The translations under genes and the position numbers were made by a program. A stretch of DNA of 36,873 nt from an uncultured Colwellia sp. (GTDB lineage Bacteria > Pseudomonadota > Gammaproteobacteria > Enterobacterales > Alteromonadaceae): contig CAJXPG010000021.1 of assembly GCA_913057925.1 (NCBI GenBank), positions 1 to 36,873 of the forward strand. The letters are read 5' to 3'. A model generated the notes under the pieces. It did no database searches and was not told the DNA's origin. It was given only the letters and a program-made list of their open reading frames with translations. Shown piece after piece: positions 6,012 through 28,961 of this stretch (the stretch's first letter is position 1; each line of letters opens with the position of its first letter).

Positions 6012-6018
6012 AGCAAAA

Positions 6019-6464: not shown

Positions 6465-6466
6465 TA

Positions 6467-6492: not shown

Positions 6493-6564
6493 TCTGTTTT
6501 AAGATTACTATATTACTTAATTCACCATTATCGGGGATTTAATGTTGCGTTATTCATTCTTTTA

Positions 6565-6887: not shown

Positions 6888-6889
6888 AA

Positions 6890-8203
6890 ATGGCTTATTC
6901 TTTAAATGTGGTTTATGGCCGACAAGTCATTGGACAATTAACCCAGCACAAAGAGTCAGGCTTACTCAAACTATCTTATAGTCAGCAGTGGCAAGAAACA
7001 GGCTTTGCAATTTCTCCTGCTTTAACGTTTGAAAAACATGATAAAACAGCTGCTTATAACTTCTTGGATAACCTACTTCCTGAAGGTGAAGCAAGAAAAT
7101 TACTTGCACAAGATATTGGTGTAAATGAAAAGCAGGTATTTCCTCAAATAAGAGCTATTGGTAACGACCTTTGTGGTGCTTTCACTTTTTTAGCAGAGCA
7201 GTCATCGTCATCAGATAAGGCTATTTTCAGAGTAATTGAAGAAGATGAACTTATTCACCGTCTAGACCATAAAGAAGATATTGGGCTTTTGCATTGGGAT
7301 GAAAAGCCAAGGTTAAGTGTTGCTGGTGTACAAGATAAATTAAATGTCTTTGTGAATGAACATGGGGAAATTGGTCTAGCAGATGGCACACTGAGCTCTA
7401 CGTTTATTCTTAAATTTGAGCGAAAAAACTGCGCTAATTTAGTTATTAATGAATATTTTTGCATGAAATTATCACAACTTGTCGGCTTGCCAACATCAGA
7501 CGTAACGTTAAAACGATTTGGTAAACATCCTGCTCTTTTAGTCAAACGCTTTGATAGGAAACATGATGTTACGAGCAACAGAGTATTAAGAAAGCATGTG
7601 ATAGATGGTTGCCAAGCGTTAAACTTAGCAAGAGATTATAAGTATGAGCGCAATCTTGGTGATGGTCGAGATGTAAAGCATATTCGAGATGGGGCTAGCC
7701 TTGAAAGGTTATTTAGTTTTTGCCGACAATCATCTGAGCCAATTGCAAACATGCAATGGCTAATTAATTGGCAACTGTTTAATTTGCTGATCAGTAATTA
7801 TGATAGCCATGGTAAAAATGTTTCTTTTTTTTATGGTGCTAACGAAAGTATTTTCACACCGGCCTACGATTTAGTTAATGTCGCTATGTTTGATCAGTTT
7901 AAGCATACTTTAGCGATGGCAATGGGAGATGAATTTGAACCTGACACCATCAATACGTATCAACTGGCGGACTTTGCCGATAGTTGCCAGCTTGATAGAG
8001 AGTTAGTCAGTCGAATGCTAATAAAGCTAGTTACAAAGGTATTAAAAGAATTAGCTGCTAATAATATTGCATCCAAGTTAGAAAAAGAGGGGAGCATTTC
8101 TCAAGAAGAAATACAATATCTTAATCAAGTAAGCGAGCATATAAAAATAAGAGCGACTCATCTTTTAGAGCAAGCTGATGAAATGACCTCGATTGAACTA
8201 TAG
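6890..8203 (+). CDS. hipA: HipA-type serine/threonine kinase toxin
   Basis: The start is taken at ATG 6890 (437 residues), 2 nt after hipB; an in-frame TTG at 6878 would overlap hipB. Domains fit full-length HipA: an N-terminal subdomain (residues ~1-110, with FLDNLLPEGEAR), then the kinase. Kinase marks are SVAGVQDKL at ~143-151 (Ser143 aligns with the regulatory autophosphorylated Ser150 of E. coli HipA), FILKFER, VKRFDR, the catalytic SNYDSHGKNVS (NxDxHxKN) and TPAYDLVN for metal binding. E. coli HipA phosphorylates glutamyl-tRNA synthetase and causes dormancy; the target here is not known. All core kinase residues appear intact, so it is likely active. Confidence 0.9.
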   Translation: MAYSLNVVYGRQVIGQLTQHKESGLLKLSYSQQWQETGFAISPALTFEKHDKTAAYNFLDNLLPEGEARKLLAQDIGVNEKQVFPQIRAIGNDLCGAFTFLAEQSSSSDKAIFRVIEEDELIHRLDHKEDIGLLHWDEKPRLSVAGVQDKLNVFVNEHGEIGLADGTLSSTFILKFERKNCANLVINEYFCMKLSQLVGLPTSDVTLKRFGKHPALLVKRFDRKHDVTSNRVLRKHVIDGCQALNLARDYKYERNLGDGRDVKHIRDGASLERLFSFCRQSSEPIANMQWLINWQLFNLLISNYDSHGKNVSFFYGANESIFTPAYDLVNVAMFDQFKHTLAMAMGDEFEPDTINTYQLADFADSCQLDRELVSRMLIKLVTKVLKELAANNIASKLEKEGSISQEEIQYLNQVSEHIKIRATHLLEQADEMTSIEL

Positions 8204-13366: not shown

Positions 13367-13975
13367 TTACTTTGGCTTGTTTAACTTCGAAGTTTTTAGT
13401 TGTTTTCGTCTAACAACCATACCAGCTAGAGCAAGTGAAAAAATGGTTACTGTGGCAGGCTCAGCAATGGTTGCATCTACTTTATCATTACTCTGCTCAG
13501 TAAACTTACCATCGAACACAGCCCAAGCATATCGGCTACTTGTCTTGGGTAAAAATATGTTTGAGTCGCCACCGAGTGTAAAAAAGTGGGATTTTAACCC
13601 TGAATTTGTTGCTTTAGTCGTGCTGGTCCATATGTGATCATCATCTAATAACCTATTGCTAAATAAATCGAAATCATTTTTTGATTGCTGTAGTGATAAG
13701 CCTTCATCTAAGCTAGCTAAGCGCCAATCATCATGACCAAAAACTTCAAGCTCTTCAGACCATATTTTTGCTTCAGAAAAAGTTAGTTTTCCGTCTTTAT
13801 CATAACCGCTTGTTTTGACATAAGAGATATTCGCGAGCCAAGTAATGTTGGAGACATCATCATAAATCAAGTTGTGATCCTTGCTAATGATTAAGCCGGC
13901 ATTGGCTGAGCTTGTTATGCTTAACAGTGTTAGCACTGACAGGGATGTAAATAATTTTTTAAATAATAGCTTCAT
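13367..13975 (-). CDS. PEP-CTERM sorted protein with DUF1566-like domain
   Basis: This 202-residue protein starts at ATG behind GGAGAAGAG. The signal peptide is SLSVLTLLSITSSANA. The body carries the Lcl/DUF1566 pattern: LIYDDVSNITWLANISY, KIWSEELEVFGHDDWRLASL and HIWTST, ending in RYAWAVFDG. The C-terminus is a sorting tail (AEPATVTIFSLALAGMVVRR): EPAT motif, hydrophobic helix, basic end. This is the PEP-CTERM signal processed by exosortase in bacteria that make exopolysaccharide. It predicts a surface or matrix protein; no exosortase gene is in the window. The first residue of the motif is Ala rather than the more common Val-Pro. Confidence 0.85.
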   Translation of the reverse strand: MKLLFKKLFTSLSVLTLLSITSSANAGLIISKDHNLIYDDVSNITWLANISYVKTSGYDKDGKLTFSEAKIWSEELEVFGHDDWRLASLDEGLSLQQSKNDFDLFSNRLLDDDHIWTSTTKATNSGLKSHFFTLGGDSNIFLPKTSSRYAWAVFDGKFTEQSNDKVDATIAEPATVTIFSLALAGMVVRRKQLKTSKLNKPK

Positions 13976-14102
13976 GTTCTCTTCTCCGACACGTTTATAG
14001 ACCTGTTTGTTACCGTTATTTATTTCAGTAACTCAAGATTTGGCTTTTATAAATAATAAACCTATGATGTAGTGTGAAGCTAGTCACTTAATCGGATTTC
14101 TC

Positions 14103-14146
14103 GTATCAAGTTGTCGTAAATAACCGGCTTTACGACAACTTGATAC
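14103..14146. promoter_or_regulatory. 44-bp palindrome, copy A (perfect)
   Basis: GTATCAAGTTGTCGTAAA (14103-14120) is inverted exactly at 14129-14146 around an 8-nt spacer, 83 bp before the response-regulator start. Variants occur at 16447-16489 and 20880-20923. The right arm ends in TTGATAC, which could overlap a -35 element. It is probably a regulator binding site, likely for the adjacent OmpR-type regulator. Confidence 0.7.
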
Positions 14147-14229
14147 AATTTAATTTTATTGTCTAAGCTGTTTTAGGTATTCTATTTTCGTTATAGTGAC
14201 CTTAATATATAAAAGAGATTGGTGGTATT

Positions 14230-14940
14230 TTGACTCATATTTTAATTGTGGATGATAACGCAGATATTCGGCAACCACTGCAGCGATATTTAACTGATCA
14301 CGGATTACGAGTTACCTGTGCTGATGGTGGCGTTGCCATGCGTGAAACCCTTAAAAATAGTGCAATTGATCTGATACTACTCGACATCATGATGCCAGGA
14401 GAAGATGGCTTATCTTTATGTCGCTTTGTGCAAGATACTTTAAAAATTCCGGTTATTTTATTAACGGCTTTAGGTGAAGATGCCGATAGAGTTGTTGGCC
14501 TTGAAATGGGAGCCGATGATTATGTACGTAAGCCATTTAACCCAAGAGTTTTACTTGCCAAAATAAAAGCAGTACTTCGCCGCAGTCAAAGCTCCCCAGT
14601 ACAAACACAGCCTATAGAGTCAGACATCTTGTTATTTGCTGATTGGAAATTCGATATAAATCAAAGGGAGCTGATTGATAGTGAGGGCATGGCCGTAGCG
14701 CTAAGCAGTGTTGAATATAAATTGTTGTATGCTTTTCTTTTAAGGCCTAAAACGACATTAAGCCGAGATCAATTATTGGATTTAACCCATGGTCGTGAAG
14801 CAAAAGCCTTTGATCGCAGTATTGACAACTCAATCAGCAGATTGAGACGTAAAGTTGAAGAAGACGCTAGTTCTCCTAAACTAATCAAAACGGTTTGGGG
14901 TGGAGGTTATATGCTAACTGTTGACGTTATACATCAATGA
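14230..14940 (+). CDS. OmpR-family response regulator
   Basis: The protein has 236 residues; the start is TTG 14230 with GGTGG just upstream. The N-terminal receiver (residues 1-120) has every phosphorylation residue: acidic pair Asp8-Asp9 (ILIVDDN), phospho-acceptor Asp52 (LILLDIMMPGEDG), Thr79 (VILLTAL) and Lys101 (VRKPF). The C-terminal winged helix (residues ~130-230) shows VALSSVEYKLLYAFL, LSRDQLLDLTHGR, DRSIDNSISRLRRKV and KTVWGGGYML, as in OmpR. It overlaps the kinase gene by 4 nt (ATGA), so the two are co-translated. A perfect palindrome upstream suggests autoregulation. The regulated genes may include the orphan regulator at 16562 and the surface-protein/receptor pair, which have related palindromes. 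Confidence 0.95.
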   Translation: MTHILIVDDNADIRQPLQRYLTDHGLRVTCADGGVAMRETLKNSAIDLILLDIMMPGEDGLSLCRFVQDTLKIPVILLTALGEDADRVVGLEMGADDYVRKPFNPRVLLAKIKAVLRRSQSSPVQTQPIESDILLFADWKFDINQRELIDSEGMAVALSSVEYKLLYAFLLRPKTTLSRDQLLDLTHGREAKAFDRSIDNSISRLRRKVEEDASSPKLIKTVWGGGYMLTVDVIHQ

Positions 14941-16328
14941 TAAGGCTTATGCCAAAGCGTTTAGCAGGTCAGTTGATATTATTATTATTAACTACGTTAG
15001 TGCTGTCCCAGTTATTTACCTTAATATTTTCGTTGTCTGAAACCGATAGCATGCTCAAACGCGTTGAAGATAATAGAATCTTAAGGAAATCAGCTCTGGT
15101 TGCTAATGCCTTGACGCAAATTCCAGTAGAGAACCACCAAGCGATTGTTAATTTATTAACGACTTTTAGGATCCAATACCATCTTGATGATAAACCAAGG
15201 ATCCCAACTCACTTATTGAACAATGGTCAAGACAATAAAGTTGAATTGTTGAAGGAAACGCTTATTCGTAGCTATGACAAAATTTATGTTCATCAGTATC
15301 CTGCGCCAGAGCACCGGATAATCTTTATTTTTAAAAATATTTTTGGCCATTTTTTTTCTTTTGCAAGTAATAAAAAGCAGACAGAGTTACGTCCTTTGCT
15401 TCTCTCGACCTCGATTATGCTTGAACAAGGGCATTGGCTAAACATGACCGTATATGGACGAGTTTCTTTTCCTAGCTGGGCTTTTTTGGCGCTGACTTCA
15501 TTATTGGTGATGTCACTTGTTGCAACCCTCATTGTTGTTTTTAGTATTAAACGTATAACTCGGCCACTTAAAGAGCTTACAAGCAAAGCACTGCTCTTAG
15601 GCGTTGGTGAAGAGGTTGAGCCTATTAAAGAACGAGGCCCAGAAGATATTAAAGACACTATTTCTGCATTTAATACGATGCAGCTTCGTTTAAAAAATAT
15701 CATTACGCACCGCACACGCTCTTTAGCGGCCATGTCCCATGATTTACGCACACCATTAACATCAATGCGTTTGCATGCAGAGTTTATTCATGACCCTGAA
15801 ACTCAGGATCGCATTGTCGAAAAAATTGATGAGATGGAGCATATTACTAAGGCGACTATTTCATTTGCTAAGCAAGATTCCTGGTCTGAAAAGCGCAGAC
15901 AGGTAGATATTTCTGCTTTGGTAGATAGTTTGTGCCAAGACTTATCAGATATTGGTTTATCAGTAGAATTCGAGCTTACTGACAGAATGAGTTACAGCTG
16001 TCGCCCTAATGCACTAAGACGAGCATTTAGTAACTTGATAGAGAATGGCGTTAAATATGGACATGCCGTTTTAGTAAAAATTTTAGAAGAAGAAGAAACC
16101 CTCAATATTATTATTTCTGATCAGGGACCAGGTATTGAAGATTCGCAGCAAAAGCGAATCTTTGAACCGTTTGAGCGACTTGAAGAGTCTAGAAACAATC
16201 AATCTGGAGGGCTTGGTTTAGGAATGACCATTGCTTTAACCATAATCCGAGGTCACGGCGGTGATATTACTTTGCATAATAGGGCTAACCAAGGCCTAGA
16301 TGTCATGGTTATCTTACCTAAGCAATAG
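14937..16328 (+). CDS. EnvZ-type sensor histidine kinase
   Basis: The 463-residue protein has one membrane helix at ~8-30 (QLILLLLTTLVLSQLFTLIF), a periplasmic sensor region of ~140 residues, and a second helix at ~178-200 (AFLALTSLLVMSLVATLIVV). A HAMP linker follows (RITRPLKELTSKA). The HisKA box is AAMSHDLRTPLTS, with His268 as phospho-acceptor. The ATPase domain shows NLIENGVKYG (N box), DQGPGIE (G1) and GGLGLGMTIA (G2). It phosphorylates the regulator encoded just upstream. The ligand is unknown; the sensor region lacks a family I recognise. A CCAAAA repeat follows the gene. Confidence 0.95.
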   Translation: MIRLMPKRLAGQLILLLLTTLVLSQLFTLIFSLSETDSMLKRVEDNRILRKSALVANALTQIPVENHQAIVNLLTTFRIQYHLDDKPRIPTHLLNNGQDNKVELLKETLIRSYDKIYVHQYPAPEHRIIFIFKNIFGHFFSFASNKKQTELRPLLLSTSIMLEQGHWLNMTVYGRVSFPSWAFLALTSLLVMSLVATLIVVFSIKRITRPLKELTSKALLLGVGEEVEPIKERGPEDIKDTISAFNTMQLRLKNIITHRTRSLAAMSHDLRTPLTSMRLHAEFIHDPETQDRIVEKIDEMEHITKATISFAKQDSWSEKRRQVDISALVDSLCQDLSDIGLSVEFELTDRMSYSCRPNALRRAFSNLIENGVKYGHAVLVKILEEEETLNIIISDQGPGIEDSQQKRIFEPFERLEESRNNQSGGLGLGMTIALTIIRGHGGDITLHNRANQGLDVMVILPKQ

Positions 16329-16377
16329 CGTCACGTCAGAGAGTAAATCCTTCATTTTTCACAATCACACTGCTTAA

Positions 16378-16413
16378 CCAAAACCAAAACCAAAACCAAA
16401 ACCAAAACCAAAA
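16378..16413 (+). repeat. Six perfect CCAAAA repeats
   Basis: A hexanucleotide repeat CCAAAA occurs six times without error over 36 bp, 50 bp after the kinase stop and before the orphan regulator's promoter. Such tracts vary in copy number by slippage; it lies outside coding sequence, so any effect would be on promoter spacing or the transcript end. Confidence 0.9.
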
Positions 16414-16446
16414 GCGCAAAGCAAATATAACAATTCTGTTGATTTG

Positions 16447-16489
16447 TTATCAACTTGTCTCAGACCTCGAAATTGCGACACCTTGATAC
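16447..16489. promoter_or_regulatory. Palindrome copy B (imperfect), upstream of the orphan regulator
   Basis: The left half TTATCAACTTGTC and the right half (inverse of GTATCAAGGTGTCGCAA) match the arms of the perfect copy at 14103, with spacing one base shorter. It ends 72 bp before the orphan regulator start. Confidence 0.6.
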
Positions 16490-16561
16490 AATGTTTTTTA
16501 TATCCAAAATCCATATTAGATACACTATTACCAAACAAAGATTGTTAATAGGAAGTGATTT

Positions 16562-17197
16562 ATGAACATAGAAACTGATATCAGTCGTCAAGCTTTGCTC
16601 AAGCGCTATCTTGGAGATAAAGATATTGCAGAGTTGACATCGCCTAACTTGATATCAACTGCCGGCAAGCTTAAAGGCAAGGCATTTGATTCACTTATGA
16701 TTGATGTTAATAAGTCTAAATCAAATGCTTTTGATGCATTACAGGCTTTAAGGTTGTCTATTGATATTGCGGTTGTTCTGATAGAAAGTGGCATACTTAA
16801 TATTAAAGGACAAAAATCTCATAGTTTGGCTGATCTAGAAAAGGTCATGGATGACAATATTGTTGAGCTATACCACCGCATCGATAATTTTGTAAATATG
16901 GGAGACTTAACCATTATAAAAACAAGTCGCCAAGTATTGATTGAAAATGAGTCGTTGAACCTAACACCAAACGAGTTTAACTTGTTAGTATTATTAGTAG
17001 ATGCTGCAGGCTCTATCGTGACTAAAGAGGTATTAAGTCAGGAAGGGGTTGGTCGAGAATTCCAAGCACATCATCGAAGTGTTGAAATGCATCTTAGCAA
17101 CCTGAGAAGAAAATTAGGCACAGATGATAAAGGTCGAGAGAGAATAAAAACCATACGTGGTATTGGCTATCAATATTTAATTTATCCAGACGCTTAA
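16562..17197 (+). CDS. Orphan winged-helix regulator with degenerate receiver
   Basis: The protein has 211 residues; ATG 16562 follows AGGA. The C-terminal ~90 residues are an OmpR-type winged helix (LNLTPNEFNLLVLLVDAAG, IVTKEVLSQEGVGREF, HHRSVEMHLSNLRRKLG, IKTIRGIGYQYLI). The N-terminal ~115 residues resemble a shrunken receiver: FDSLMIDVNKSKSNAFDALQ keeps an Asp (Asp48) near the phospho-acceptor position, and DNIVELYHRIDNFV matches the last helix. The double-acid pocket and the conserved Thr and Lys are not evident. It is probably not regulated by phosphorylation in the normal way. No kinase is adjacent in an operon, and the gene has its own promoter region (with palindrome copy B) and terminator. 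It may act with, or under, the two-component system upstream. Confidence 0.8.
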   Translation: MNIETDISRQALLKRYLGDKDIAELTSPNLISTAGKLKGKAFDSLMIDVNKSKSNAFDALQALRLSIDIAVVLIESGILNIKGQKSHSLADLEKVMDDNIVELYHRIDNFVNMGDLTIIKTSRQVLIENESLNLTPNEFNLLVLLVDAAGSIVTKEVLSQEGVGREFQAHHRSVEMHLSNLRRKLGTDDKGRERIKTIRGIGYQYLIYPDA

Positions 17198-17212
17198 TCA
17201 ATGAATAACAAT

Positions 17213-17243
17213 AAGGGAGCTATATAAAGCTCCCTTGTCTTTT
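17213..17243 (+). terminator. Rho-independent terminator after the orphan regulator
   Basis: AAGGGAGCT (17213-17221) pairs with AGCTCCCTT (17228-17236), 9 bp with a 6-nt loop, followed by GTCTTTT. Confidence 0.8.
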
Positions 17244-17430
17244 ACTAATCATACTAACGCCAATTAACGAGTTATTCTCACTGAACAATCAAAGCAGCCT
17301 CGTATATACCTTCTTGATAATCACTGTAAAACACACTGAAACCAAGGTGAAATTTAATCACTTCTTTTGTTGCCCCCTAACTTGGTAGCTTCCTATTTCC
17401 TTTTTCATGGTTTTAATTACTTACTAGCCG

Positions 17431-17686
17431 CTGTTGATCTTTCGAGATTGTTTTTGCAGCAACTTGTTTGGTATTTAGACAAGGCAGAGTATGTGACGTG
17501 AAGCTAGCTACTCGAACATACGATAACGCAGTCTACATTTCAAACAAACGCTGCCCGAAGGGTTCGGCTAAAAGCGCTTTTTTCATTGTTGAGTAGTATT
17601 TGCGTAGAATGACTAGGCGACATACTACTCGCCGCGAATAAAACGCTTTTAGCTCGAACAAAATTTCAACCCTGAAAGATCAACAG
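17431..17686. mobile_element. MITE-like palindromic element, about 256 bp
   Basis: CTGTTGATCTTTC (17431-17443) is exactly inverted at 17674-17686. Inside are nested inverted repeats: GCTAAAAGCG (17567-17576) with 17644-17653, and GAGTAGTAT (17591-17599) with 17622-17630. No open reading frame is present. Terminal inverted repeats, small size and nested hairpins fit a non-autonomous miniature transposon or dispersed palindromic repeat. A target duplication was not resolved. The rest of the 17198-17819 gap holds the two flanking terminators and no gene. Confidence 0.65.
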
Positions 17687-17700
17687 GCCCTAAAGGTAAG

Positions 17701-17734
17701 AAAAAAAAAAGCTCCAGGGATATCCCCGAAGCTT
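17701..17734 (-). terminator. Terminator for the GlyGly-CTERM gene
   Basis: Read on the minus strand, AAGCT (17734-17730) pairs with AGCTT (17713-17709) around an inner GGGATATCCC palindrome (17717-17726), and is followed by a run of Ts (complement of A 17701-17710). It lies about 85 bp after the stop codon. Confidence 0.75.
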
Positions 17735-17819
17735 TACCTTTATAAAGTGTCTCGTCCTGAAATGAAGTCTAACCAAAACGAGTGCTGCTATTGATGATTA
17801 GACTCGGTCAATATGCGCT

Positions 17820-20633
17820 TTATAATGTCCGGCGGCGTAATGATAGCAAGCCTAACATGGCTAATAACCCTGCTGAGAAAGAGCCACCTTCACTTGCTCT
17901 AACCTCAGAATCTGTTACAGGAACATTAAAGGTTACTTCATTAGTCGCACCTTTTTCATCAGTCAGTTTAACGGTAATATTATTATCACCAATGTTAGCT
18001 TTAAGTGGTGTACCCGATAAAATGCCACCTTCTGCTACTTTTAACCAGTATGGGCCAGCAATTTTTTCAATAGTATAGCCATCACTTTCTGCGTCATTTA
18101 TCGCTCGTGCAATGTTCTCTCTATAGGCAACATTACGAGCACCAGCAGCTAATTCAATGGTAGACATTTTAGGTGCATTGTTAAATGCTACAGAGACACT
18201 TACCGTTGTTTCGCCTGTTTGTGCTTTGTTATCGTTAAAGCTTACCGTTGCCGTATGTTCACCACTGGTAAGTTTTGATACATCAGCCGTTAACGCACCA
18301 GTTTCTTCTACTGTTAACCAACTTGACTCACCTTCTAGAGCAAACGTAACAGCGCTAACATCAACATCACCTAAATAAGTAGTTAATTCATCTTTAAGGG
18401 TAACTTTACTACCTTCATTTACACTGGCTGCCGGTAAGGTTATTGTGTTTGCACTCCATTGGATTAACTCAAAAGATTCTGCTAATACACCGGGATCTTC
18501 AATTGAGCCATTTTCCATCCCATCAGCATCATAAATACCTCCATCTTTAATGGTTAATTGAATACAACTATCACCAGCGGTTAAACCATCAAGATATAGC
18601 TCATCATTTGGTGCAGGACAGTTGCCCATTTCATCTTTGGCAGCTGAAGCTATGCTATTGTCGGTATCACTAACAAATTTAGTCCAACCAGATGCTGGCG
18701 TGAATTTGCGGTATTCTGTTTCTTCACCAAGAACTACACCTTCAGGTAAAGGGTAAACGACAGGTGCACTATCACCGGCAGCTGCTAAACCATCAAGTGT
18801 GAAGTTAAATAATCTTGCACCTTCAATAGGTAAGAAACCTTCATCAGTAGTATCTGCATCTGGGTAGCTAGATGCTAAATCATCATTACTAATAGTGGCT
18901 GACTTTGCACTAATACCTTGAGCGCTTGTACTAACACTGCCTAATGACAACGTTAATCCTGCTAGGGTTTTTAATGGCGCTTGCTCTTCAGCTAATGGTA
19001 ATTGAGAGGTATCAGCACTATCATCAAGGTAATCAACGATGCCATCACCGTCTGAATCTTTATTACCCTCGTCAATATCATTGATACCATCGCCATCAGT
19101 ATCTATATCAGCGATTAATTCTGGCAGTGGAGTAGCAATTACTCGAACTTGTGCCGTTAGTGTGCTTGATGGGTATTTCTCAATCGTATTGTTCTCGATA
19201 GCTTGTGCACTTAAGGTGAAATCTCCTGATAATTCGGCAGGAGAAAAGACAAAGCTTGTTCCTGAGCCAAGCAAAGTTTCACTGTTGTTCCAAGTAATGT
19301 CATGGCTATCTTCAGCATTAAAGTCAGTAACATTAACGGTAACAGTAACGTCACCTTTGTTAGCATCAATGTAAGGGATCTCATCAGCATTATTGGCGTT
19401 GATGGTAATGTCATCCACACCACTTTGTGTCAGGGTTAAGCTGATACTTGGCTTAGTATTACCTTCAAAAGCAGTGATGGTAATGGTTTCAGAACTTGCC
19501 TGTACCTTAACCGTTTCTGTTAAGGTTAATACTGCTGTTTGATCCGTTGATGCGCTACCAAGTAAGGTAATGTCTACGTATTGTGCTGTCGTTGCTGAGG
19601 CTGCATCTTCAAAGGTTATTGTGCCACTTTCAGCACTCGCCGCTTCACCGGTCACTGTGTAATCAATGATAGCTGGATAGTCTTCTGCTGGTCCTGATAA
19701 AGCAATGCTTGCAGTCGCGGTCGCGCCAGCAGGTAATAAGGTTGTTTCAGGGGCAGTTAATACGATGTAAGGCTTGATTTTTACCGTTACATCTTTAGTT
19801 GACGTATTACCCGCAGCATCGGTAGCTTGTAAAGTAACGGTATGCTTGCCCGATAATAAGCTTGCCTCACCAACAATAGTTGCAGCAATGACGCCGTCAG
19901 TATCATCAGTTGCGTTAATATCCAATGAGCCGCTAACAAGATCCACTTCACCACTAATATCGGTACTTACAGTCGTGGCATTGATGACGATATCTTCAAT
20001 TTCAGCTGGGAATACTGGTTTGGTGGTATCGCCAGTAGGCTCTGGTTCAACGGAACTAGCTTTAGTGGTGATGGTTAATGTTGGTCGGAATTCTGCGCTG
20101 GCTTCACTCGAGTAATATTTGGTAGCTCTGGCATCGGCATCAGCAATGTTAATCATAAAGGTAAAGGTACCATTTCCTTCAATACCTGCCGCAATATCAA
20201 AATCAGCGGTTGCACCAACGGCAATATCTGTTGCCGTAGCGATTGTATCTGTAACGGCAGCGAGAAGATCATCGTCATTTAAATCAGTTAGAGTGGTTTG
20301 ATCCCAGCTAGGAGCGCCAGGAATGGCAGCGATATAAGTGTCGGGAATGTTGCCAGACTTATTGCCTTGGGCTGTAAGGGTTAGAATCGCGGTATCTACA
20401 ACATGACCATCTGGTATTCCAGCCACGGTAAACTGCATAAAAGCACGCATCTTACCTGTGTCGATACGAAGTGTAGTTTGGGTGCCGTAATTAGAGCCTG
20501 AGCCCGCTCCACTGCCATTTGTCCAAGTATCTTGAACTGCGCTTAACGGACCTATATCAGCAGCTAATGCCGTTTGCGTGAAGCTTGAAATAATTGCCGC
20601 AGCAACTAGTGATTTGTAATGCTTTTTGTTCAT
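17820..20633 (-). CDS. Multidomain surface protein with CBM96-like domain and GlyGly-CTERM tail
   Basis: This 937-residue protein starts at ATG behind AGGGGATC. A signal peptide ends in QTALAAD (~25). Residues ~27-190 match the DNRLRE/CBM96-type fold (VQDTWTNGSGAGSGSNYGTQ, LRIDTGKMRAFMQFTV, DTYIAAIPGAPSWDQTTLTD). Next comes a HYR-like Ig domain (~205-290, VTLQATDAAGNTSTKDVTVK) and a Calx-beta-like stretch (~290-390). Calcium-binding thrombospondin-3 repeats lie at ~508-536 (DTDGDGINDIDEGNKDSDGD). A choice-of-anchor-U-like region covers ~565-725, and two Ig-like domains ~735-910 follow. The end, EGGSFSAGLLAMLGLLSLRR, is a GlyGly-CTERM tail, cleaved by rhombosortase and linked to type II secretion in known cases. 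It likely binds a glycan at the cell surface. It is divergent from a CAZyme-type TonB receptor; a palindrome lies in the shared upstream region. Confidence 0.85.
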   Translation of the reverse strand: MNKKHYKSLVAAAIISSFTQTALAADIGPLSAVQDTWTNGSGAGSGSNYGTQTTLRIDTGKMRAFMQFTVAGIPDGHVVDTAILTLTAQGNKSGNIPDTYIAAIPGAPSWDQTTLTDLNDDDLLAAVTDTIATATDIAVGATADFDIAAGIEGNGTFTFMINIADADARATKYYSSEASAEFRPTLTITTKASSVEPEPTGDTTKPVFPAEIEDIVINATTVSTDISGEVDLVSGSLDINATDDTDGVIAATIVGEASLLSGKHTVTLQATDAAGNTSTKDVTVKIKPYIVLTAPETTLLPAGATATASIALSGPAEDYPAIIDYTVTGEAASAESGTITFEDAASATTAQYVDITLLGSASTDQTAVLTLTETVKVQASSETITITAFEGNTKPSISLTLTQSGVDDITINANNADEIPYIDANKGDVTVTVNVTDFNAEDSHDITWNNSETLLGSGTSFVFSPAELSGDFTLSAQAIENNTIEKYPSSTLTAQVRVIATPLPELIADIDTDGDGINDIDEGNKDSDGDGIVDYLDDSADTSQLPLAEEQAPLKTLAGLTLSLGSVSTSAQGISAKSATISNDDLASSYPDADTTDEGFLPIEGARLFNFTLDGLAAAGDSAPVVYPLPEGVVLGEETEYRKFTPASGWTKFVSDTDNSIASAAKDEMGNCPAPNDELYLDGLTAGDSCIQLTIKDGGIYDADGMENGSIEDPGVLAESFELIQWSANTITLPAASVNEGSKVTLKDELTTYLGDVDVSAVTFALEGESSWLTVEETGALTADVSKLTSGEHTATVSFNDNKAQTGETTVSVSVAFNNAPKMSTIELAAGARNVAYRENIARAINDAESDGYTIEKIAGPYWLKVAEGGILSGTPLKANIGDNNITVKLTDEKGATNEVTFNVPVTDSEVRASEGGSFSAGLLAMLGLLSLRRRTL

Positions 20634-21138
20634 GTGATCCCCTATCTCTATTTATTATATATGTTTTTCAGGTTCTTAAACGTTACTTAGTAAAAACACT
20701 TGTTAGATGTTTTTTATTGTTATAAGGCACGTTGTTGGGCGGTAGCCTCATTTTTGCTCAATTTACATATTGTTCGTCTTTATATTGTTGTTTTTTCAAT
20801 ATGTAAAAGTGAAAGAGGTACTCTCTAGCCCTTTCTGTAATTAATATATAGAATAAAACACCTATAAATAATTTAATTTGTATCAAGTTGTCGCAAATGT
20901 CATTTCTTACGACAGATTGATACAATGTTATGTTTTTTCAGGCTAGCGCTCAGTATGTTTTTTACCTTATTGTTACAACATGATTTGTTTGTTATTAACA
21001 AAGTCCACTTTGAGTTTGGGCTGTTGTTTCGAGATGACAGGGGAGTGCCTTTAATTGCCAAGGGCTAAAAGTCACCATTATTAAAATGATCATTCAAAAA
21101 AAAACAATAATTTGATATAAATGTCGTAGGGGAAGAAA
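20634..21138. other. Divergent promoter region between surface protein and receptor
   Basis: About 505 bp with no coding sequence. It contains palindrome copy C at 20880-20923, roughly midway, and AT-rich stretches that must hold both promoters. The ribosome-binding sites are GGGGA for the minus gene and AGGGGAAG for the plus gene. Confidence 0.6.
20880..20923. promoter_or_regulatory. Palindrome copy C in the divergent region
   Basis: The left arm GTATCAAGTTGTCGCAAA (20880-20897) differs by one base from the perfect copy at 14103. The right arm (inverse of GTATCAATCTGTCGTAA) differs by a few bases. Total length is 44 bp, the same as copy A. Confidence 0.65.
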
Positions 21139-24045
21139 GTGCAGAATCAATTTAAAAAAACTAAAATAGCGAGTTATGTATGCTTAGCACTTGCAAGTAC
21201 TACATCAGCTGCAGCTGAAAAAAATAAGAAAGCTGAAGATGTTGAAGTCATTGAAGTTACCGGTGTACGTTCAAGTTTAAACTCAGCATTAAATGCCAAG
21301 AAACATGCTGAAAGTATTTCAGATTCGATTATTGCCGAAGAAATCGGTAAATCTTCTGATGAAAATATAGCCCAAGCACTTTCGCGAGTTTCAGGTGTTT
21401 CATTAGATAGAAACGGTGGTGATGCACAGACTATTACTGTACGTGGTGTAAAAGCGTCACTTAACGATATCAAGCTTAACGGCGTATCGATGACCAGTAA
21501 TACTGATAACCAAGCCGTTGACTTAAGTTTATTCTCAGCTGATATTCTAAGCCGCATTGATGTGGTTAAATCTCCTGCGGCGAACCAAGAAGAAGGTTCA
21601 TTGGGTGCATCTATTAATTTACAAACCCGTGCGCCATTATCAGCTAATAAAAATGTTAACGTTTTCTCAGTTGAAGCACGTTATAACGAATTAGCTGAAG
21701 AAGTTACGCCAAGATTTGCTTATTCTGGCTTATATCAATTTACCGATAGTATCGGTATTGCAGGCTCACTATTTCACGACCAACAAAGTGTACGTAAAGA
21801 AGAGTTTTCAACCAATGGTTGGCGACTAAACAGTGAGCAAACTAACAATAAAGCTTTTGATAATGCCACCAATGTATTAACAGGTGAAAAAATGCCTGAA
21901 GGTACTCCAGGTATGATGCCTGATGGTGCTAAAGCGCGGGTAAACCTTGATGATAAACTCAAACAAGGAGGTACTTTTACTTTTCAAATGCGCCCAGGTG
22001 ATGATACCAATATTCGCTTTGATACCTCTTTTTCTCGTCAAGAAATAGACCATATTCACTCGCAAACACGTTTAAATAATTTAGACCGCGCTGCAGGTAG
22101 TACGCTTGCTGAAATAGGTTTGTTACCGGGTAATAGTGAAGATGCAAGTACAGTGGTAAGTGCTTTTTCTAAAAAACCAGGCACGCAAGCGCAAAATGGT
22201 CAGTGGACAAATACTACAGATACTTTAGTTACCGGTTTAGAAGTCGATCACGCTATTAATGATTACTGGTTAGTAAAAGGGAGAGTAGGTCACTCTAGTA
22301 CCGCGCAAGAGTGGAGTGACAGCAATAAAGTAAACTGGTGGGCAAAAGGCGCAACAACGCCATCAAATAGTCCTTCTGATTGGTGTGGCGTAAATTACGT
22401 TGACGGTCCACAAGGGGACTATTTACCTGAATTTAGTTATTGCTCTAACTGGAATAATGATGATCCTAGTGGCTGGATGATGGGGCAGGCACGCGTAGAA
22501 ATGCGTGAAGTTGATGATAGTAAAACCAGTGCTTATTTAGATGCCAGTCGCTCTTTTGATTCAAGCTTTATTACCTCGGTTGAATTTGGTGTTAAATATA
22601 CCGACCGAACAAAAGCGGTACTTCATGATGAAGCGGTGAAAAAGTGGAAAGAGTTCGATGATCCATCAACTAAAATATTTGCTGATTCTATTGAAGGGGT
22701 CATGGAAAGCTCAATTACCGATGGTCACTTCTTAGGAGGTATTGCACCCGTTGGTATGCCAACTACTTGGTTATCTCCAGACATTGATGCCAGTATCGCT
22801 GCAGCCTTTCCAAATGGTACTGACGGTTTATTTGTATCCAGCCCATTAAAAACTTGGGAAGTAGATGAACAAACCTATGGTGCTTATATTCAAGCAAACT
22901 TTGAATTTTTAGACGGTGATATCAACGGTAACTTCGGTGTTCGTTATGCAAATACCAAAGTTGAAGGTCGCAGTCACTCAGGTTATGAATATCCAAGCGA
23001 TATTATGTTTGAAGTTGATGGCGTTAGTGTACCTGCCAGTGATTATGATGAGCCTGTTGCAGTAACAGAAGAGCATGACTATGCTGAGTTCTTACCTAGT
23101 TTTACCTTAAACTACCTCCTTAATGAAGACATAGTGCTTCGTACTAGCGCGGCACGTGTAATGGCGCGCCCAAGTGTCGATGATCTAAACCCAAGCTTTC
23201 GCCTTAATTCATCAAACATGAATGCAACACCTTATGCTAAAGGCGGAAATACTCAACTTGACCCGTTTTTAGCCGATCAATTTGATTTTTCAGCAGAATG
23301 GTATTTTGAAGAAGGTGCGTTATTATCAGCGGCATTCTTCTATAAAGATTTCCAAAGCTTTAGTTATGACTCGTCAGTCTTTAAAGAGTTTGAGAACCCA
23401 ATTGATGGTAACTGTATTGTTGACCGTTCAGCCATACCTGGTGATGAGCAACTAACCGCAACTGCGCCTTGTGCTTATGTGCCATATAGTACCTCTGTTA
23501 ATGGTGCTTCAGCTGACATTAAGGGTTTAGAGATGGCTTATCAACAAAGCTATGACTTTTTACCAGGTTTGCTAAAACATCTTGGTAGCTCAATTAATTA
23601 TACTTACGCTGATAGTGAAGCGATTGTTGATCCTGATGATGAGAGCAACCCGTATAATGGTTTACCATTTATCAATACCTCAAAACACTCAGCTAACGCG
23701 ACAGTGTATTGGGAAAATGATGATATGAGTTTCCGTTTTGCTTATGCTTATAGAACCAAAGCGTTAGTTGATACCACTTCAGGTAACAGCAGTAAGATAC
23801 GTGACGATCGTGGTACGTTAGATTTTACCGCTAACTTTGATATTACCAAGGCATTAAAACTTAGCTTCTCAGCGACTAACTTAACGGAAAGTTATGACCG
23901 AATCTACAACGTGCTAACTGCGCCTGAAGATACAGGCTTAACGAAAGAGTTTGATGGTGACTTAGGCAGTGTTAATGACACACGTGTAGATCAAATCTAT
24001 AACTACGGTAGAAGTTACCGTTTATCAATGCGTTATAGCTTCTAA
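21139..24045 (+). CDS. TonB-dependent outer-membrane receptor, CAZyme-locus type
   Basis: The protein has 968 residues; the start is GTG 21139 behind AGGGGAAG. The signal peptide ends near SAAA (~25). A TonB-box-like VEVIEVTGVR precedes the plug (residues ~35-170). Plug marks are SLNSALNAKKHAESISDSII, ENIAQALSRVSGVSLDR, ITVRGVKASLNDIKLNGV and DILSRIDVVKSPAANQEEGS. The remainder is a 22-strand barrel ending in SMRYSF with the terminal Phe needed for assembly. This plug style is typical of Xanthomonas/Caulobacter-type receptors found in polysaccharide-uptake loci, so oligosaccharide import is likely. Energy would come from TonB-ExbBD, a set of which is encoded at 29-31 kb. A terminator follows. 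Regulation may be through palindrome copy C. Confidence 0.95.
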   Translation: MQNQFKKTKIASYVCLALASTTSAAAEKNKKAEDVEVIEVTGVRSSLNSALNAKKHAESISDSIIAEEIGKSSDENIAQALSRVSGVSLDRNGGDAQTITVRGVKASLNDIKLNGVSMTSNTDNQAVDLSLFSADILSRIDVVKSPAANQEEGSLGASINLQTRAPLSANKNVNVFSVEARYNELAEEVTPRFAYSGLYQFTDSIGIAGSLFHDQQSVRKEEFSTNGWRLNSEQTNNKAFDNATNVLTGEKMPEGTPGMMPDGAKARVNLDDKLKQGGTFTFQMRPGDDTNIRFDTSFSRQEIDHIHSQTRLNNLDRAAGSTLAEIGLLPGNSEDASTVVSAFSKKPGTQAQNGQWTNTTDTLVTGLEVDHAINDYWLVKGRVGHSSTAQEWSDSNKVNWWAKGATTPSNSPSDWCGVNYVDGPQGDYLPEFSYCSNWNNDDPSGWMMGQARVEMREVDDSKTSAYLDASRSFDSSFITSVEFGVKYTDRTKAVLHDEAVKKWKEFDDPSTKIFADSIEGVMESSITDGHFLGGIAPVGMPTTWLSPDIDASIAAAFPNGTDGLFVSSPLKTWEVDEQTYGAYIQANFEFLDGDINGNFGVRYANTKVEGRSHSGYEYPSDIMFEVDGVSVPASDYDEPVAVTEEHDYAEFLPSFTLNYLLNEDIVLRTSAARVMARPSVDDLNPSFRLNSSNMNATPYAKGGNTQLDPFLADQFDFSAEWYFEEGALLSAAFFYKDFQSFSYDSSVFKEFENPIDGNCIVDRSAIPGDEQLTATAPCAYVPYSTSVNGASADIKGLEMAYQQSYDFLPGLLKHLGSSINYTYADSEAIVDPDDESNPYNGLPFINTSKHSANATVYWENDDMSFRFAYAYRTKALVDTTSGNSSKIRDDRGTLDFTANFDITKALKLSFSATNLTESYDRIYNVLTAPEDTGLTKEFDGDLGSVNDTRVDQIYNYGRSYRLSMRYSF

Positions 24046-24696: not shown

Positions 24697-27600
24697 CTAA
24701 CTTGATGCTTTTAATCTTGAGGTATTTATACTCGAATTTATGAGTGATTTACTATTATGACTTTTGGTTTTTAATTGCTCTGATAATGTAAACATAGCCG
24801 GGCTTAATAATAAAATAGTGGCAATAGAAAATACCGATCCAAAACTTAAACTAATGACCATAGGTACTAAATATAATGCCTGTGTGGATGTTTCAAACAG
24901 CATAGGAAATAAACCTGCGGCAGTGGTTACAGCAGTTAGTACAACGGGGCGAAAACGATTTAAAGCAGCTTCAATTACCGCTTCTTTATAATCCATACCT
25001 TCCTTTTTCAAGGTTTTAACTTTAAGTAACATAACGAATGAGCCATTAATCACTAACCCAGAAAGCGCAATCATGCCAAATAAGCTCATCACGCTAAACG
25101 AATAACCCATCACAATATGCCCTAACATAGCGGCTGCTAAACAAAAGGGAATAATAAGTAGTACTAAAATAGCGTCGAGATAACTGCGGAATATTATCGC
25201 TAACATGGCAAAAATAAGCGCGAATGCTAGGCCTACGCCTTTTATTATTTCCGAATTAACTTTAGATTCAATTCGAGCATCACCGCCAAGTTCTACCTCA
25301 AGCTCTGGGTATTTAGCGCTTAATTTGCTTAATAAGTCTTCTTCAACCGTTTTGAGTATCAACGAGGCATTGGCTACTTGCCTTAATATGCTAGCGGTAA
25401 CTTCCACTAACTGAATGCCGTCAACACGGTTAATGCTTGTAGCTGCTTTAGAGGTGGTGATATTAGCCACTTGGCTTAATTCTACACTGTCGCCATTAGG
25501 TGCCGTAATTATTAATCGGTTGAGTTGATTGGCATAATACTGCTGGTTTCTTTGCATCATCACTCTTACTTTTACTTCATCGCCCGCCACTATTTGTCGA
25601 ATGGCTTCGCCGCCAAAAAATCGTAAACGAATTAACTCACCTAAGCTGTCACTGGTAAAACCAAGGTTTTTTCCTAACGGTGTTGGCGTAAGGTTATATT
25701 GTAGTTTGCCATCCATCAATGCACTATCAATATCAGTTACGCCTGATATTCTATTGAGTCCGTTCATTAACTCATTGGTGGCGAGGGTTAGTATGTCAGC
25801 ATCTTTATGGCCCAATTCTATTACCAGTTCTTTGCCACCACCAGGACCAACTTGATAGTCAAAGAAAATTGATTTAACGCCAGGTACTTCACCAATATTT
25901 ATCCGCCAAGCATCGACAAACTCTTTAGCGGTAAAATTGCGTTGATCATCTGCAACAATCATAAAAGTTGACGAGCCACTGCTTGAGCCAATATCTTGCA
26001 TGCGAAACTTATAATCGTCTTGCCCGTTTAAGCTATCAATGGCTTTTATACCTGCCGCTTCAATATAATTAATAATGTCAATTTTATCTTTTAATGGCGC
26101 GCCCGTTGGGAATTCAACCTCGGCATCTATTCGTGTAGATTCAATTTTAGGCACAAAGCTTGAATCAACTCGGCCACTATAAACCCATGAAAAAACCAGT
26201 GTAGCCAGTGATAAGAAGATGATAATTATCGTAACAGGGTTATTGCAACTGGTTCTTAACCACTTAGCATAAATGGCTGTTTTAAAGTGATCGAAACGCT
26301 TAAAGCAATGAGCTTGAACGTTAGATATAACGCGAAAACGCATTGGCTTATCAATATGGCGTAAATGAAGCGGTAAAATTAATAAGGCTTCAATGAGAGA
26401 AACAATAAAAATGGCAAAAATGAGTAAGGTCATGGGTTTATACATAACACCAAGCTCACCCGGTACATACAGCAATGGTATAAACGCGATAATGTTGGTT
26501 GCCACTGAAAATACCACAGGTAAAGTCATCTCTTTCACCCCATCTTTAAGGGCTATATTCATCGCAATACCTTGCTGTACTTTCAGGTAAATGTTTTCAG
26601 CAACAATTACCGCATCATCAACCAGTATTCCTAAGGTAATGATAAAAGCAAAGAGGGTGATCATGTTGATGGGGATATCGAGTAATGGCATGATTCCTAA
26701 GGTGCCGATAATAGAAATAGGTATGCCCATGCTTACCCAAAAAGCTAATCTTAAATCAAGAAAAAGGGATAAGACTAAGATAACCAACAACATGCCAATA
26801 AGACCATTACTGGTTAACAAGTTAATGCGTTGACTAAAAGGCTCCGACTGATCTTGCAGTATGGTTAACGTTAATCCTGCGGGGGTTTTTGATTTATAGT
26901 CTGCAATAAATGCTTGAATGTCTTTGCTTATCTCTATTGGTTTACTGCTTTTATTTTGATAAACCTTTAGTTCTAAGCCTGCTTCACTATTGACTTTAAA
27001 CGGTCTTGTTTGACCTTGAAAGCTATCGCTAATGGTTGCAATGTCAGCGAGTGTCACGCTATTGCCACTGCCGTCAGTAATGATAGTTATGTCTGAAAAC
27101 TGCTCGGATAATTCTTTTCGACCCAAGGTTCTAATTAAAATTTCACCACCTTGCGTATTAATACTTCCTGCAGGTACATCGGTCACCGATGTTTTCACTT
27201 TAGATAAAACTTGCGCTAAAGTGAGCTGATATTGACGTAATTTTACTTGATTAAGTTCAATGACTATTTCAGGGGAACGTGCACCTTGGATGTCAATTTT
27301 TGCTAAATCAAGTGCGTCTAACATCGCTTGTTTTAGTTGTGAGGCTTCACGGTAGAGCAGCAATTCTGATACATTACCATGCAGTCCAATTTCAACAATA
27401 CTGTCAAGCTCCTCAACAAAGGTAATCGTTGGATTTTCCATTTCAATGGGGAAGCTATTTATGCCCTCGATACTGTTTTTAACTTGCGACAATATAGTGT
27501 CAGGATTAACGCCTTCAATTAACTCTACTATGATTTCAGCGGAGCCTTCGTAAGCATTGGCGCTTATTCGATCAATATTAGGGTTGTCTCTTAACTGATG

Positions 27601-27843
27601 TTCGATGCTTAAAATGATACCTTGTTCGATATCTTTTGGCGTGGCACCAGGGTAACTTGCTTCGATTAAAATTTCATTAATCTGAAACGAAGGGCTACTT
27701 TCTTGGTTAATGCTATTAAAGGACAGTAAGCCAAGAATGATAATCGCAAAGGTTAATAAACTTGAAGCGATAGGGTTATCAATCATCCAAAGTGAGGGCG
27801 CTGACAGTATGCTTTTATTTGACGTTATGCTCTTTGCTGTCAT
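24697..27843 (-). CDS. RND-family efflux pump, inner-membrane subunit
   Basis: The 1048 residues match the usual length of AcrB/MexB-type pumps. The N-terminal helix is at ~25-45 (ASSLLTFAIIILGLLSF). The first porter segment has YPGATPKDIEQGI. The TM4 proton-relay Asp pair is in GILVDDAVIVAEN (~409). A second set of helices lies near the C-terminus (AIIFRSYLDAILVLLIIPF, SGLVINGSFVMLL, TAVTTAAGLFPML). The Asp pair places it with the hydrophobe/amphiphile exporters rather than the metal-pump group, though substrates cannot be read. The ATG overlaps the adaptor stop (TAATG), so translation is coupled. No outer-membrane channel gene is present; it probably uses a TolC-like protein encoded elsewhere. 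Confidence 0.95.
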   Translation of the reverse strand: MTAKSITSNKSILSAPSLWMIDNPIASSLLTFAIIILGLLSFNSINQESSPSFQINEILIEASYPGATPKDIEQGIILSIEHQLRDNPNIDRISANAYEGSAEIIVELIEGVNPDTILSQVKNSIEGINSFPIEMENPTITFVEELDSIVEIGLHGNVSELLLYREASQLKQAMLDALDLAKIDIQGARSPEIVIELNQVKLRQYQLTLAQVLSKVKTSVTDVPAGSINTQGGEILIRTLGRKELSEQFSDITIITDGSGNSVTLADIATISDSFQGQTRPFKVNSEAGLELKVYQNKSSKPIEISKDIQAFIADYKSKTPAGLTLTILQDQSEPFSQRINLLTSNGLIGMLLVILVLSLFLDLRLAFWVSMGIPISIIGTLGIMPLLDIPINMITLFAFIITLGILVDDAVIVAENIYLKVQQGIAMNIALKDGVKEMTLPVVFSVATNIIAFIPLLYVPGELGVMYKPMTLLIFAIFIVSLIEALLILPLHLRHIDKPMRFRVISNVQAHCFKRFDHFKTAIYAKWLRTSCNNPVTIIIIFLSLATLVFSWVYSGRVDSSFVPKIESTRIDAEVEFPTGAPLKDKIDIINYIEAAGIKAIDSLNGQDDYKFRMQDIGSSSGSSTFMIVADDQRNFTAKEFVDAWRINIGEVPGVKSIFFDYQVGPGGGKELVIELGHKDADILTLATNELMNGLNRISGVTDIDSALMDGKLQYNLTPTPLGKNLGFTSDSLGELIRLRFFGGEAIRQIVAGDEVKVRVMMQRNQQYYANQLNRLIITAPNGDSVELSQVANITTSKAATSINRVDGIQLVEVTASILRQVANASLILKTVEEDLLSKLSAKYPELEVELGGDARIESKVNSEIIKGVGLAFALIFAMLAIIFRSYLDAILVLLIIPFCLAAAMLGHIVMGYSFSVMSLFGMIALSGLVINGSFVMLLKVKTLKKEGMDYKEAVIEAALNRFRPVVLTAVTTAAGLFPMLFETSTQALYLVPMVISLSFGSVFSIATILLLSPAMFTLSEQLKTKSHNSKSLINSSINTSRLKASS

Positions 27844-28961
27844 TACAAAACTCCCGTCACGATATTTGCTAGCATACCTTCTTGTGCTCCTGCAATTGCA
27901 CTGGTAACAATTGATTCACCTTTGGCTATATTGTTATTAATAATGGCATAGTTCTCGTTTTGCCAAATAATATTTGCAGTTTTTGTCGATAGTTTATTGT
28001 CTTCGTCTACAATCCAGAAAACACTATCGTCAATCGCGCTAAGCGGTATTTTTAAGGTGTTTTTTTGTGGTGTTAATGTTAAATCGGCGGTAATAAACTC
28101 TCCCAAGATGAAGGGCTTTTCTGGATTTTTTATACTGAGGTAGACTTGTTGCAATTGGCTATTATCATGCAAGGTAGGTGATAATTGTGATACCAAGGCT
28201 TGATGACTGTTATTACTATCAGCTGAAATATTAACGACTTGGTTTATGCTTAACACTGTCGCGACATCACTGGGAACAGCGAGTGAAACCCGTAATATTG
28301 AAAGTTGCGCCATTTCTCCCAAATTATCGCCTTTGTTAACAAAACTTCCTTGATATATTGCTTTCGTTAACACAGCATAGTTTCCACTGCTGACGACAAC
28401 ACACCTTTGCAGGTTTTTTTTAGCAATATTCACATTGCTTTGTGCGATAGTAACATTCGCTTTTGCTGTCTCTAATTGCGGTTGACGCAACATCAGTGAC
28501 TTTTGCAAAATGATGTTTTCACCACTGAAATCAGCACTGATTTGCTGATACTCTCTTTCTGCAACCTTTTGCTCGCCAAGTTCTAACTGTAAGTTCGCTT
28601 GCGCTATTTTCAATTCACTTTCGCGTTGCTTTAATCTGTGCCGAAAATCAGCATCATCTATTTGATAAATCACATCGCCTTTTATAAGGTTACCTCCTTC
28701 AATAAATGCTTTATTAATATAGGTTATTTCTCCTTCAACTTGAGCCGTCAATGATAATAGGTGAGGCGACTCAATTTTTCCAAAAGCTTGATAACTTGGC
28801 GTAAACTCTTGTGGTAAAACATCAATAACACTTACCGATAACACCTTTTCCGTTTGTGCGGACAACTCTTGGGTTGGTGATGTTGTTAAAATAGCGGCAG
28901 AGCTAATAAGTGCGACCAAGGCGATGATTGCCGTCCATGGCTTAAAAATGAAATGTTGCAT
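27843..28961 (-). CDS. RND efflux periplasmic adaptor (membrane fusion protein)
   Basis: The start is taken at ATG 28961 (372 residues); an in-frame TTG 12 nt upstream is possible. An N-terminal membrane anchor (TAIIALVALISSAAIL) is followed by the lipoyl/barrel-sandwich half (SLTAQVEGEITYINKAFIEG). A long helical hairpin follows (~95-170; FRHRLKQRESELKIAQANLQ, LETAKANVTIAQSNVNIAKK). The second lipoyl half and beta-barrel domain complete the HlyD-like fold. It joins the pump, encoded immediately downstream, to an outer-membrane channel. It lies 168 bp after tonB on the same strand, so it may share that transcript or have its own promoter in the gap. Confidence 0.92.
   Translation of the reverse strand: MQHFIFKPWTAIIALVALISSAAILTTSPTQELSAQTEKVLSVSVIDVLPQEFTPSYQAFGKIESPHLLSLTAQVEGEITYINKAFIEGGNLIKGDVIYQIDDADFRHRLKQRESELKIAQANLQLELGEQKVAEREYQQISADFSGENIILQKSLMLRQPQLETAKANVTIAQSNVNIAKKNLQRCVVVSSGNYAVLTKAIYQGSFVNKGDNLGEMAQLSILRVSLAVPSDVATVLSINQVVNISADSNNSHQALVSQLSPTLHDNSQLQQVYLSIKNPEKPFILGEFITADLTLTPQKNTLKIPLSAIDDSVFWIVDEDNKLSTKTANIIWQNENYAIINNNIAKGESIVTSAIAGAQEGMLANIVTGVL

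Follow-up and report, generated by a model that had tools for sequence, protein, structure and literature searches.

Introduction

The operators of Escherichia coli OmpR consist of tandem 10-bp half-sites (PMC7380067). For enzymes that act on glycans, PMC10766802 names three common controls (hybrid two-component systems, extracytoplasmic function sigma systems and catabolite repression). A xylan two-component system of Cellvibrio japonicus appears in the title of PDB 2va0 and in a reference entry of PMC10766802. The regulation of the large locus of Paraglaciecola hydrolytica was called complex and not yet understood in the available portion of PMC5943477, and that of PMC6262041 mentions a two-component system in another context only. 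In the open-access literature, no two-component regulator of sulfated-glycan loci in gammaproteobacteria was found described, the Cellvibrio xylan precedent aside. Here we analyzed a stretch of 36,873 nucleotides from an uncultured Colwellia sp. (contig CAJXPG010000021.1; "the window"), in which a palindrome of about 44 bp, with arms built of 10-bp tandems as at E. coli OmpR sites, stands upstream of several genes. Sequence comparison indicates that the palindrome is very probably the operator of the two-component system encoded at 14230 (regulator) and 14937 (kinase), which would control itself and a sulfated-glycan regulon.

Palindrome copies in the window and the assembly

The first copy, S1 (14103-14146, 44 bp), had perfect 18-bp arms (14103-14120 and 14129-14146) around an 8-bp centre, and S2 (16447-16489, 43 bp) and S3 (20880-20923, 44 bp) were imperfect copies of it. 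A first-pass annotation, made from the letters alone, had given these coordinates and lengths exactly, and the ending that it reported for all three right arms, TTGATACAAT, was present in each. The putative operators are:

14102..14147, no strand: operator S1, with four half-sites, in front of the response regulator gene
16446..16490, no strand: operator S2, with four half-sites, in front of the orphan regulator gene
20879..20924, no strand: operator S3, four half-sites, between divergent genes

A strict pattern, TATCAANNTGTCN{13,22}GACANNTTGATA, matched three times in the window, and dinucleotide shuffles gave a mean of 0.00 matches and a largest count of 0. When the whole assembly (G000; 4.38 Mb, 260 contigs) was searched, exactly five matches were found: S1 to S3, S4 (C13:24920) upstream of a sulfatase gene, and S5 (C13:35650) between two divergent GH29 fucosidase genes. 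Five is a minimum, the assembly being 93% complete. All five sites were upstream of regulator, receptor or glycan-enzyme genes. A search for single arms with two mismatches returned ten matches in the assembly, nine within the five sites and one at C51:21013, compared with four for the reversed control. Many copies scattered over unrelated intergenic regions, which the first-pass annotation had said would speak for a mobile palindrome, were not seen in this genome search. Similar 44-bp units do stand at several places, as would a mobile repeat (of the repetitive extragenic palindromic or miniature inverted-repeat transposable element type) that had landed upstream of these genes; however, no genome held more than five strict copies, these were at functionally linked genes, their centres and flanks varied, and the sites followed one regulator across genera, which makes such an origin scarcely credible.

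Between the kinase stop and S2, positions 16376-16413 held 6.3 perfect copies of the hexamer AACCAA, an array whose length could vary.

The regulator that probably reads the palindrome

The first-pass annotation had proposed that a regulator of the cluster, either the OmpR-type protein at 14230 or the orphan at 16562, binds the sites and thereby ties its own expression to a TonB-dependent receptor and a surface protein. The regulatory genes are:

14230..14940, + strand: OmpR-type response regulator (receiver plus Trans_reg_C), the proposed reader of the palindrome, from profile match and co-occurrence
14937..16328, + strand: EnvZ-like sensor histidine kinase, the regulator's partner, from profile match
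16562..17197, + strand: orphan regulator with a CpxR-like DNA-binding domain behind a decayed receiver, a proposed target and not the reader

The strict palindrome and the 14230 regulator were searched in the same 395 genomes of the family. Relatives of the regulator were found in 13 genomes at E<=1e-70, and in eight of these the relative was at least 65% identical. The strict palindrome occurred in five of the 395 genomes and the reversed pattern in one (G035). As a result of this search of related genomes, which had been suggested as a check, the strict site proved confined to genomes with the closer regulator: five of the eight carried it vs. none of the other 387 (Fisher 7e-10, a statistic that ignores kinship). 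The palindrome was directly upstream of the regulator gene in G010, G018, G212 and G265. A relaxed scan for four half-sites, which covered 217 kb and was scored out of 24, placed a site upstream of the regulator in G041 (20/24) and G227 (21/24), two genomes without a strict site; mononucleotide shuffles (2.4 Mb) yielded 11 sites at 18 or above and none at 20 or above. Single arms with two mismatches gave 49 matches in seven relatives vs. 59 for the reversed pattern, showing that most were background, and only those near the regulator were followed.

When one genome per species was searched (84,980 species), the strict pattern was found in 14 stretches, four of them directly upstream of a regulator relative. 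These were a gammaproteobacterial metagenome-assembled genome (L036, relative 52% identical, site just upstream), Paraglaciecola arctica (L037), Pseudomaricurvus (L038, 59% identical, site just upstream) and Colwellia sp. 75C3 (L039). The other ten (L030-L035 and L040-L043) were taken as chance matches, because none of nine window proteins matched there at E<=1e-10.

The orphan was present in two of the eight genomes with the closer regulator and was not found at E<=1e-20 in the other six, which carried a strict site (G010, G018, G212), a relaxed one (G041, G227) or a weak one (G085). Since the palindrome tracks the 14230 regulator across genomes and the orphan is missing from six of eight, the 14230 protein is most likely the reader and the orphan a target. 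The earlier proposal is thus narrowed: for the 14230 protein it is supported by co-occurrence and by the conserved position of the site upstream of its relatives, and for the orphan it is not supported, given these absences and the likeness of its DNA-binding part to CpxR. The orphan does lie inside the cluster with its own copy, S2, and the G265 locus keeps two orphan relatives, one beside a second palindrome, as might be seen if the orphan or its intact CpxR-like relatives read the palindrome and the OmpR-type system were merely one target. We consider this very unlikely, given its absence from most regulator genomes, a DNA-binding part whose best family match is CpxR and not OmpR, and the sites of L036 and L038, which are directly at regulator relatives.

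Pfam found no receiver domain in the front part of the orphan. That part aligns with a receiver and still has Asp at the acceptor position of the alignment, but the conserved Lys falls in a gap and Thr is replaced by Asn. The G265 locus (L047) carries an intact full-length orphan relative with its own kinase at 4442-6541. Two regulators with a decayed receiver and an intact CpxR-like DNA-binding part, each beside a palindrome, were observed, at 12088-12831 of L047 and 16562-17197 of the window.

Anatomy of the proposed operator

Each arm consisted of two TGTnnCAA half-sites 10 bp apart, the outer TGTATCAA and the inner TGTCGYAA, and the inner half-sites of facing arms were 9-10 bp apart (16 operators, 32 arms); because the tandem model itself was used to place the arms, this tidy alignment is no independent proof. 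To examine it more widely, the tandem was also counted, as pairs of TGTNNCAA at offsets 6-16 with at least 11 of 12 positions matched, in 72 stretches upstream of regulator relatives: L036, L038 and 70 loci from three genome sets, in which regulator relatives were found in 13/395, 67/394 and 29/369 genomes (cut-offs 1e-70, 1e-65 and 1e-70; own genome included in each). At offset 10 the tandem was found in 46 of the 72, compared with 0-2 at each of the ten other offsets and 0.1 in twenty mononucleotide shuffles. After removal of seven stretches that had been chosen by the pattern, 39 of 65 retained it, and the matches fell in 14 of 31 groups. At the motif level, the regulator's sites therefore have the tandem half-sites about one helical turn apart that mark the OmpR/PhoB family. 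Seven other OmpR-type loci of G000 had a tandem score of at most 10, below the threshold of 11.

At about 26-29 bp from the first arm, a second arm matching at least 8 of 12 positions was found in inverted orientation in 35 of the 46 sites and in direct orientation in 30, with two at a control distance. Site by site, the inverted form was better in 28, the direct form in seven, and 11 were tied. A direct second arm was rejected on this count, although the near symmetry of the half-site TTGnnnCAA keeps the comparison from being decisive outside close relatives. The gene-facing arm was the stronger in five of six sites labelled one-directional, or four of five without S1, which was so labelled though an open reading frame (ORF; 13367-13975, minus strand) adjoins it on the left.

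An arm thus appears to be a standard tandem site that takes a single dimer, and the long palindrome of the close relatives to be two tandems face to face. Noting that the 18-bp arms exceed typical OmpR half-sites, the first-pass annotation had suggested two dimers or a new recognition mode. The former fits the four half-sites, one tandem per arm; the latter is not needed, as a 10-bp tandem repeat of the usual kind accounts for each 18-bp arm.

A palindrome may also work as a transcribed hairpin, either a terminator or a leader structure. S1 was terminator-like, with an 18-pair stem, and seven of 15 operators could keep at least 15 of 18 pairs. However, the other eight keep 10-13, with 60 of 270 pairs broken overall, and the 10-bp tandem of the arms has no role in a hairpin. 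S3 and S5 are between divergent genes, and the -10-like hexamers described below are downstream of the element, leaving it outside the transcript. A GC-rich stem followed by a T run was not present in each copy: only S1 of the three window copies was flagged as an intrinsic terminator, and it lies between divergent ORFs. Taken together, these features make an RNA element highly improbable.

Promoter geometry

Hexamers resembling a -10 element were found at a fixed distance beyond the gene-facing arms. With weights that approximate E. coli frequencies, the best hexamer 28-30 nt after the arm's CAA had a mean score of 2.0 in 20 flanks, compared with -0.27 (standard deviation 0.54) in shuffles, none of 1000 of which reached it. 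Among 66 three-wide windows tested on all 20 flanks, those at 29 and 28 ranked first. Six of the seven flanks of G000 scored above zero and five scored at least 3, with S3 carrying a hexamer on both sides. The candidate hexamers in the window, and the two genes that S3 may serve, are:

14178..14183, + strand: -10-like hexamer TATTCT, 29 nt past the CAA in the S1 arm that faces the gene, putative
16521..16526, + strand: -10-like hexamer TACACT, 29 nt beyond S2, putative
20843..20848, - strand: -10-like hexamer TATATT, 29 nt beyond the left S3 arm, putative
20954..20959, + strand: -10-like hexamer TATGTT, 28 nt beyond the right S3 arm, putative
17820..20633, - strand: DNRLRE/CBM96-type surface protein, proposed S3 target (left promoter), from profile match
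21139..24045, + strand: TonB-dependent receptor (TIGR01782), proposed S3 target (right promoter), from profile match

OmpR-type activators act near -42. If the -10-like hexamers are used, their fixed distance would set the end of the arm at about -42 and the rest of the site upstream of it, which is an activator's position, and activation is therefore the likely direction of control. The same regulator could instead act mainly as a repressor that covers or blocks the promoter until a signal releases it. Promoter-like matches do overlap S3 and both strands of S2, and in two of these matches the first hexamer is the TTGATA of the arm. However, those matches do not recur at S1, the consensus promoter scan as a whole gave 18 matches vs. 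20.7 in shuffles, and the location of the site at about -42 and upstream is that of an activator, so that we regard repression as unlikely.

Both genes beside S3 (20633-21139) begin some 180-210 nt past their -10-like hexamers, and long leaders would follow at both if these hexamers are used. In distant relatives (35 non-redundant sites among the 72 upstream stretches, close relatives included), the best -10 distance was 20 nt after TTGnnACA (mean 2.92 vs. -4.53, standard deviation 1.77, over all distances), a peak one helical turn nearer than the 30 nt of the close relatives.

Proposed targets and the glycan regulon

Four relaxed sites (19-21/24) were found in G212, one between the regulator and a sulfatase and the others upstream of a GH10 gene, a sulfatase-like gene (by appearance) and a TonB receptor. 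G227 had two (19 and 21/24), upstream of the regulator and between GH10 and sulfatase genes. Two of the sites in these genomes scored 19, below the shuffle-free level of 20. The G265 locus had one palindrome between receptor and regulator and another with a degenerate regulator on one side and a GH29 gene on the other. Sulfatase genes were common to G000, G265, G212 and G227, and in G000 and G265 the presence of GH29 points to fucose. The G010 site had a pump operon on one side and on the other the regulator, after which came a major facilitator superfamily transporter and a glucokinase-like gene (pump and kinase by appearance). In some of the 18 other loci listed, the regulator had pump parts or small exported proteins as neighbours, again by appearance, and the glycan regulon may have arisen later, by capture of an envelope/efflux-type system. 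Matches of 18/24 in L044 and L045 at about 17500 were dropped because they are inside an ORF, and two relaxed matches in L047 were dropped as frame-shifted readings of true sites.

Several results weigh against reading the palindrome as an activator site of the 14230 regulator. At the -10 position, only 14 of the 20 flanks scored above zero and ten scored at least 3, and one GH29 side of S5 scored -3.0. The 28-30 nt window was chosen after an earlier distance scan had been seen, and on the G000 flanks alone a window at 42 nt was nearly as good (2.42 vs. 2.88). The weak matches that the promoter scan flagged over S2 and S3 bypass these -10 hexamers. G085, whose regulator is 66% identical, had no site upstream of the regulator, and its weak site (18/24) was at a sulfatase adjoining the kinase gene. 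At threshold, the offset-10 tandem was absent from 26 of the 72 upstream stretches and from 17 of the 31 groups as a whole, and the near symmetry of the half-site makes inverted and direct second arms hard to separate in distant relatives. At the TonB receptor site of G212, the arm on the receptor side was the weaker of the two.

Genes of the locus

Profile matches bore out the earlier calls of an OmpR-type regulator, a histidine kinase, an orphan Trans_reg_C protein and a TonB receptor. The 14230 regulator matched PF00072 (97 bits) and PF00486 (74 bits), showing the OmpR/PhoB family layout of a receiver followed by a C-terminal winged-helix Trans_reg_C domain. It scored 249.8 bits against NCBIfam NF007005 (OmpR proper), below the cut-off of 331, which a separate protein of G000 passed at 447 bits. 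Kinase and DNA-binding regulator are two genes (14230-14940 and 14937-16328), and the system is thus not a hybrid two-component system. A fold search with the full-length kinase matched its catalytic part; the sensor domain alone gave weak matches when compared with periplasmic sensors of the PAS/PDC type, as in EnvZ, WalK and RisS. The 17820-20633 protein had been called CBM96-like with a GlyGly-CTERM tail. Its DNRLRE (CBM96-type) domain was confirmed at 48 bits (cut-off 34); the tail label came from the appearance of the C-terminus, and no GlyGly-CTERM model was among the NCBIfam matches at E<=0.01.

Downstream of the receptor, 24697-32148 held resistance-nodulation-division pump genes, TonB, ExbB/ExbD-like genes (by appearance) and a second OmpR-type regulator; the pattern search of the window found no strict palindrome in this region. 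An HTH_3/HipA-type pair at 6606-8203 is probably a toxin-antitoxin module (HipA_C 151 bits). The ORF at 69-980, probably cut by the contig end, was 34% identical to a CBM96 protein of contig C13 (L018 12234-13166).

Discussion

The sites, their four-half-site layout, their link to the regulator and, as a group, their position relative to -10-like hexamers are results of computation. In the mechanism that we propose, each arm, a 10-bp tandem of the form TGTATCAA-2-TGTCGYAA, would bind one regulator dimer, and the two facing arms would let a full site hold two dimers. About 29 nt separate the end of the gene-facing arm from the -10-like hexamer, a position from which an OmpR-type activator could contact RNA polymerase, and a single site, having arms on both sides, could serve a divergent pair of promoters (S3, perhaps S5). 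The regulator would control, and most likely activate, its own operon and the degenerate orphan regulator. Its predicted glycan targets are the TonB receptor, the DNRLRE/CBM96 surface protein, the sulfatase and the GH29 fucosidases, a set suited to seaweed-type sulfated sugars. We infer binding, phosphorylation and activation, and that the signal is a sulfated glycan, which here would contain fucose.

A broader and more tentative idea, which we would not yet favour, is that this is an old operator class of one OmpR-like subfamily, in which two tandem-bound dimers facing each other across 9-10 bp lock into a four-protein switch that fires two divergent promoters. Sulfated-glycan loci in Colwelliaceae and Paraglaciecola relatives would then have captured it as a portable module, and gammaproteobacteria would have in it a classical two-component counterpart of the Bacteroides hybrid systems. 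The new parts would be the paired layout of the tandems and its use in a glycan locus; the recognition chemistry need not be new. For a gammaproteobacterial sulfated-glycan locus, the motif names a regulator, its targets and a promoter geometry, which makes a ready test case, and the 10-bp tandem could make regulons of this OmpR-like subfamily readable in other families. It also raises the question of why the operators come as a facing pair and not as one tandem.

The xylan two-component system of Cellvibrio japonicus, AbfS, concerns xylan rather than sulfated glycans. The likeness to OmpR/EnvZ and the OmpR/PhoB family lies in a receiver plus Trans_reg_C regulator with an EnvZ-like kinase; in contrast to OmpR/EnvZ, two tandems face each other here and the targets are glycan genes. 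The remaining comparisons follow the available parts of the cited papers. The RstA box, TACATNTNGTTACA, has TACA (TGTA on the other strand) in tandem 10 bp apart, like the TGTA/TGTC half-sites here, but it is a single tandem and not a facing pair (PMC4117788). AgrR of Cupriavidus metallidurans shows positive autoregulation, as proposed here for the 14230 regulator; its operator is built on a 6-4-6 inverted repeat, to which direct repeats may be added, whereas two complete tandems are present here (PMC7380067), and a 6-bp inverted repeat with a 4-bp spacer was not found in these operators, whose facing inner half-sites are 9-10 bp apart. ArcA, also of the OmpR/PhoB family, has sites that carry further direct repeats and are proposed to accommodate more than one dimer, but these are direct repeats only, and according to the text neither their location nor their orientation with respect to the start is conserved (PMC3798270). 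As in the Bacteroides hybrid two-component systems, a sensor kinase and a regulator would govern polysaccharide utilisation genes, but here the two proteins are separate, as in systems of the classical kind (PMC11253607).

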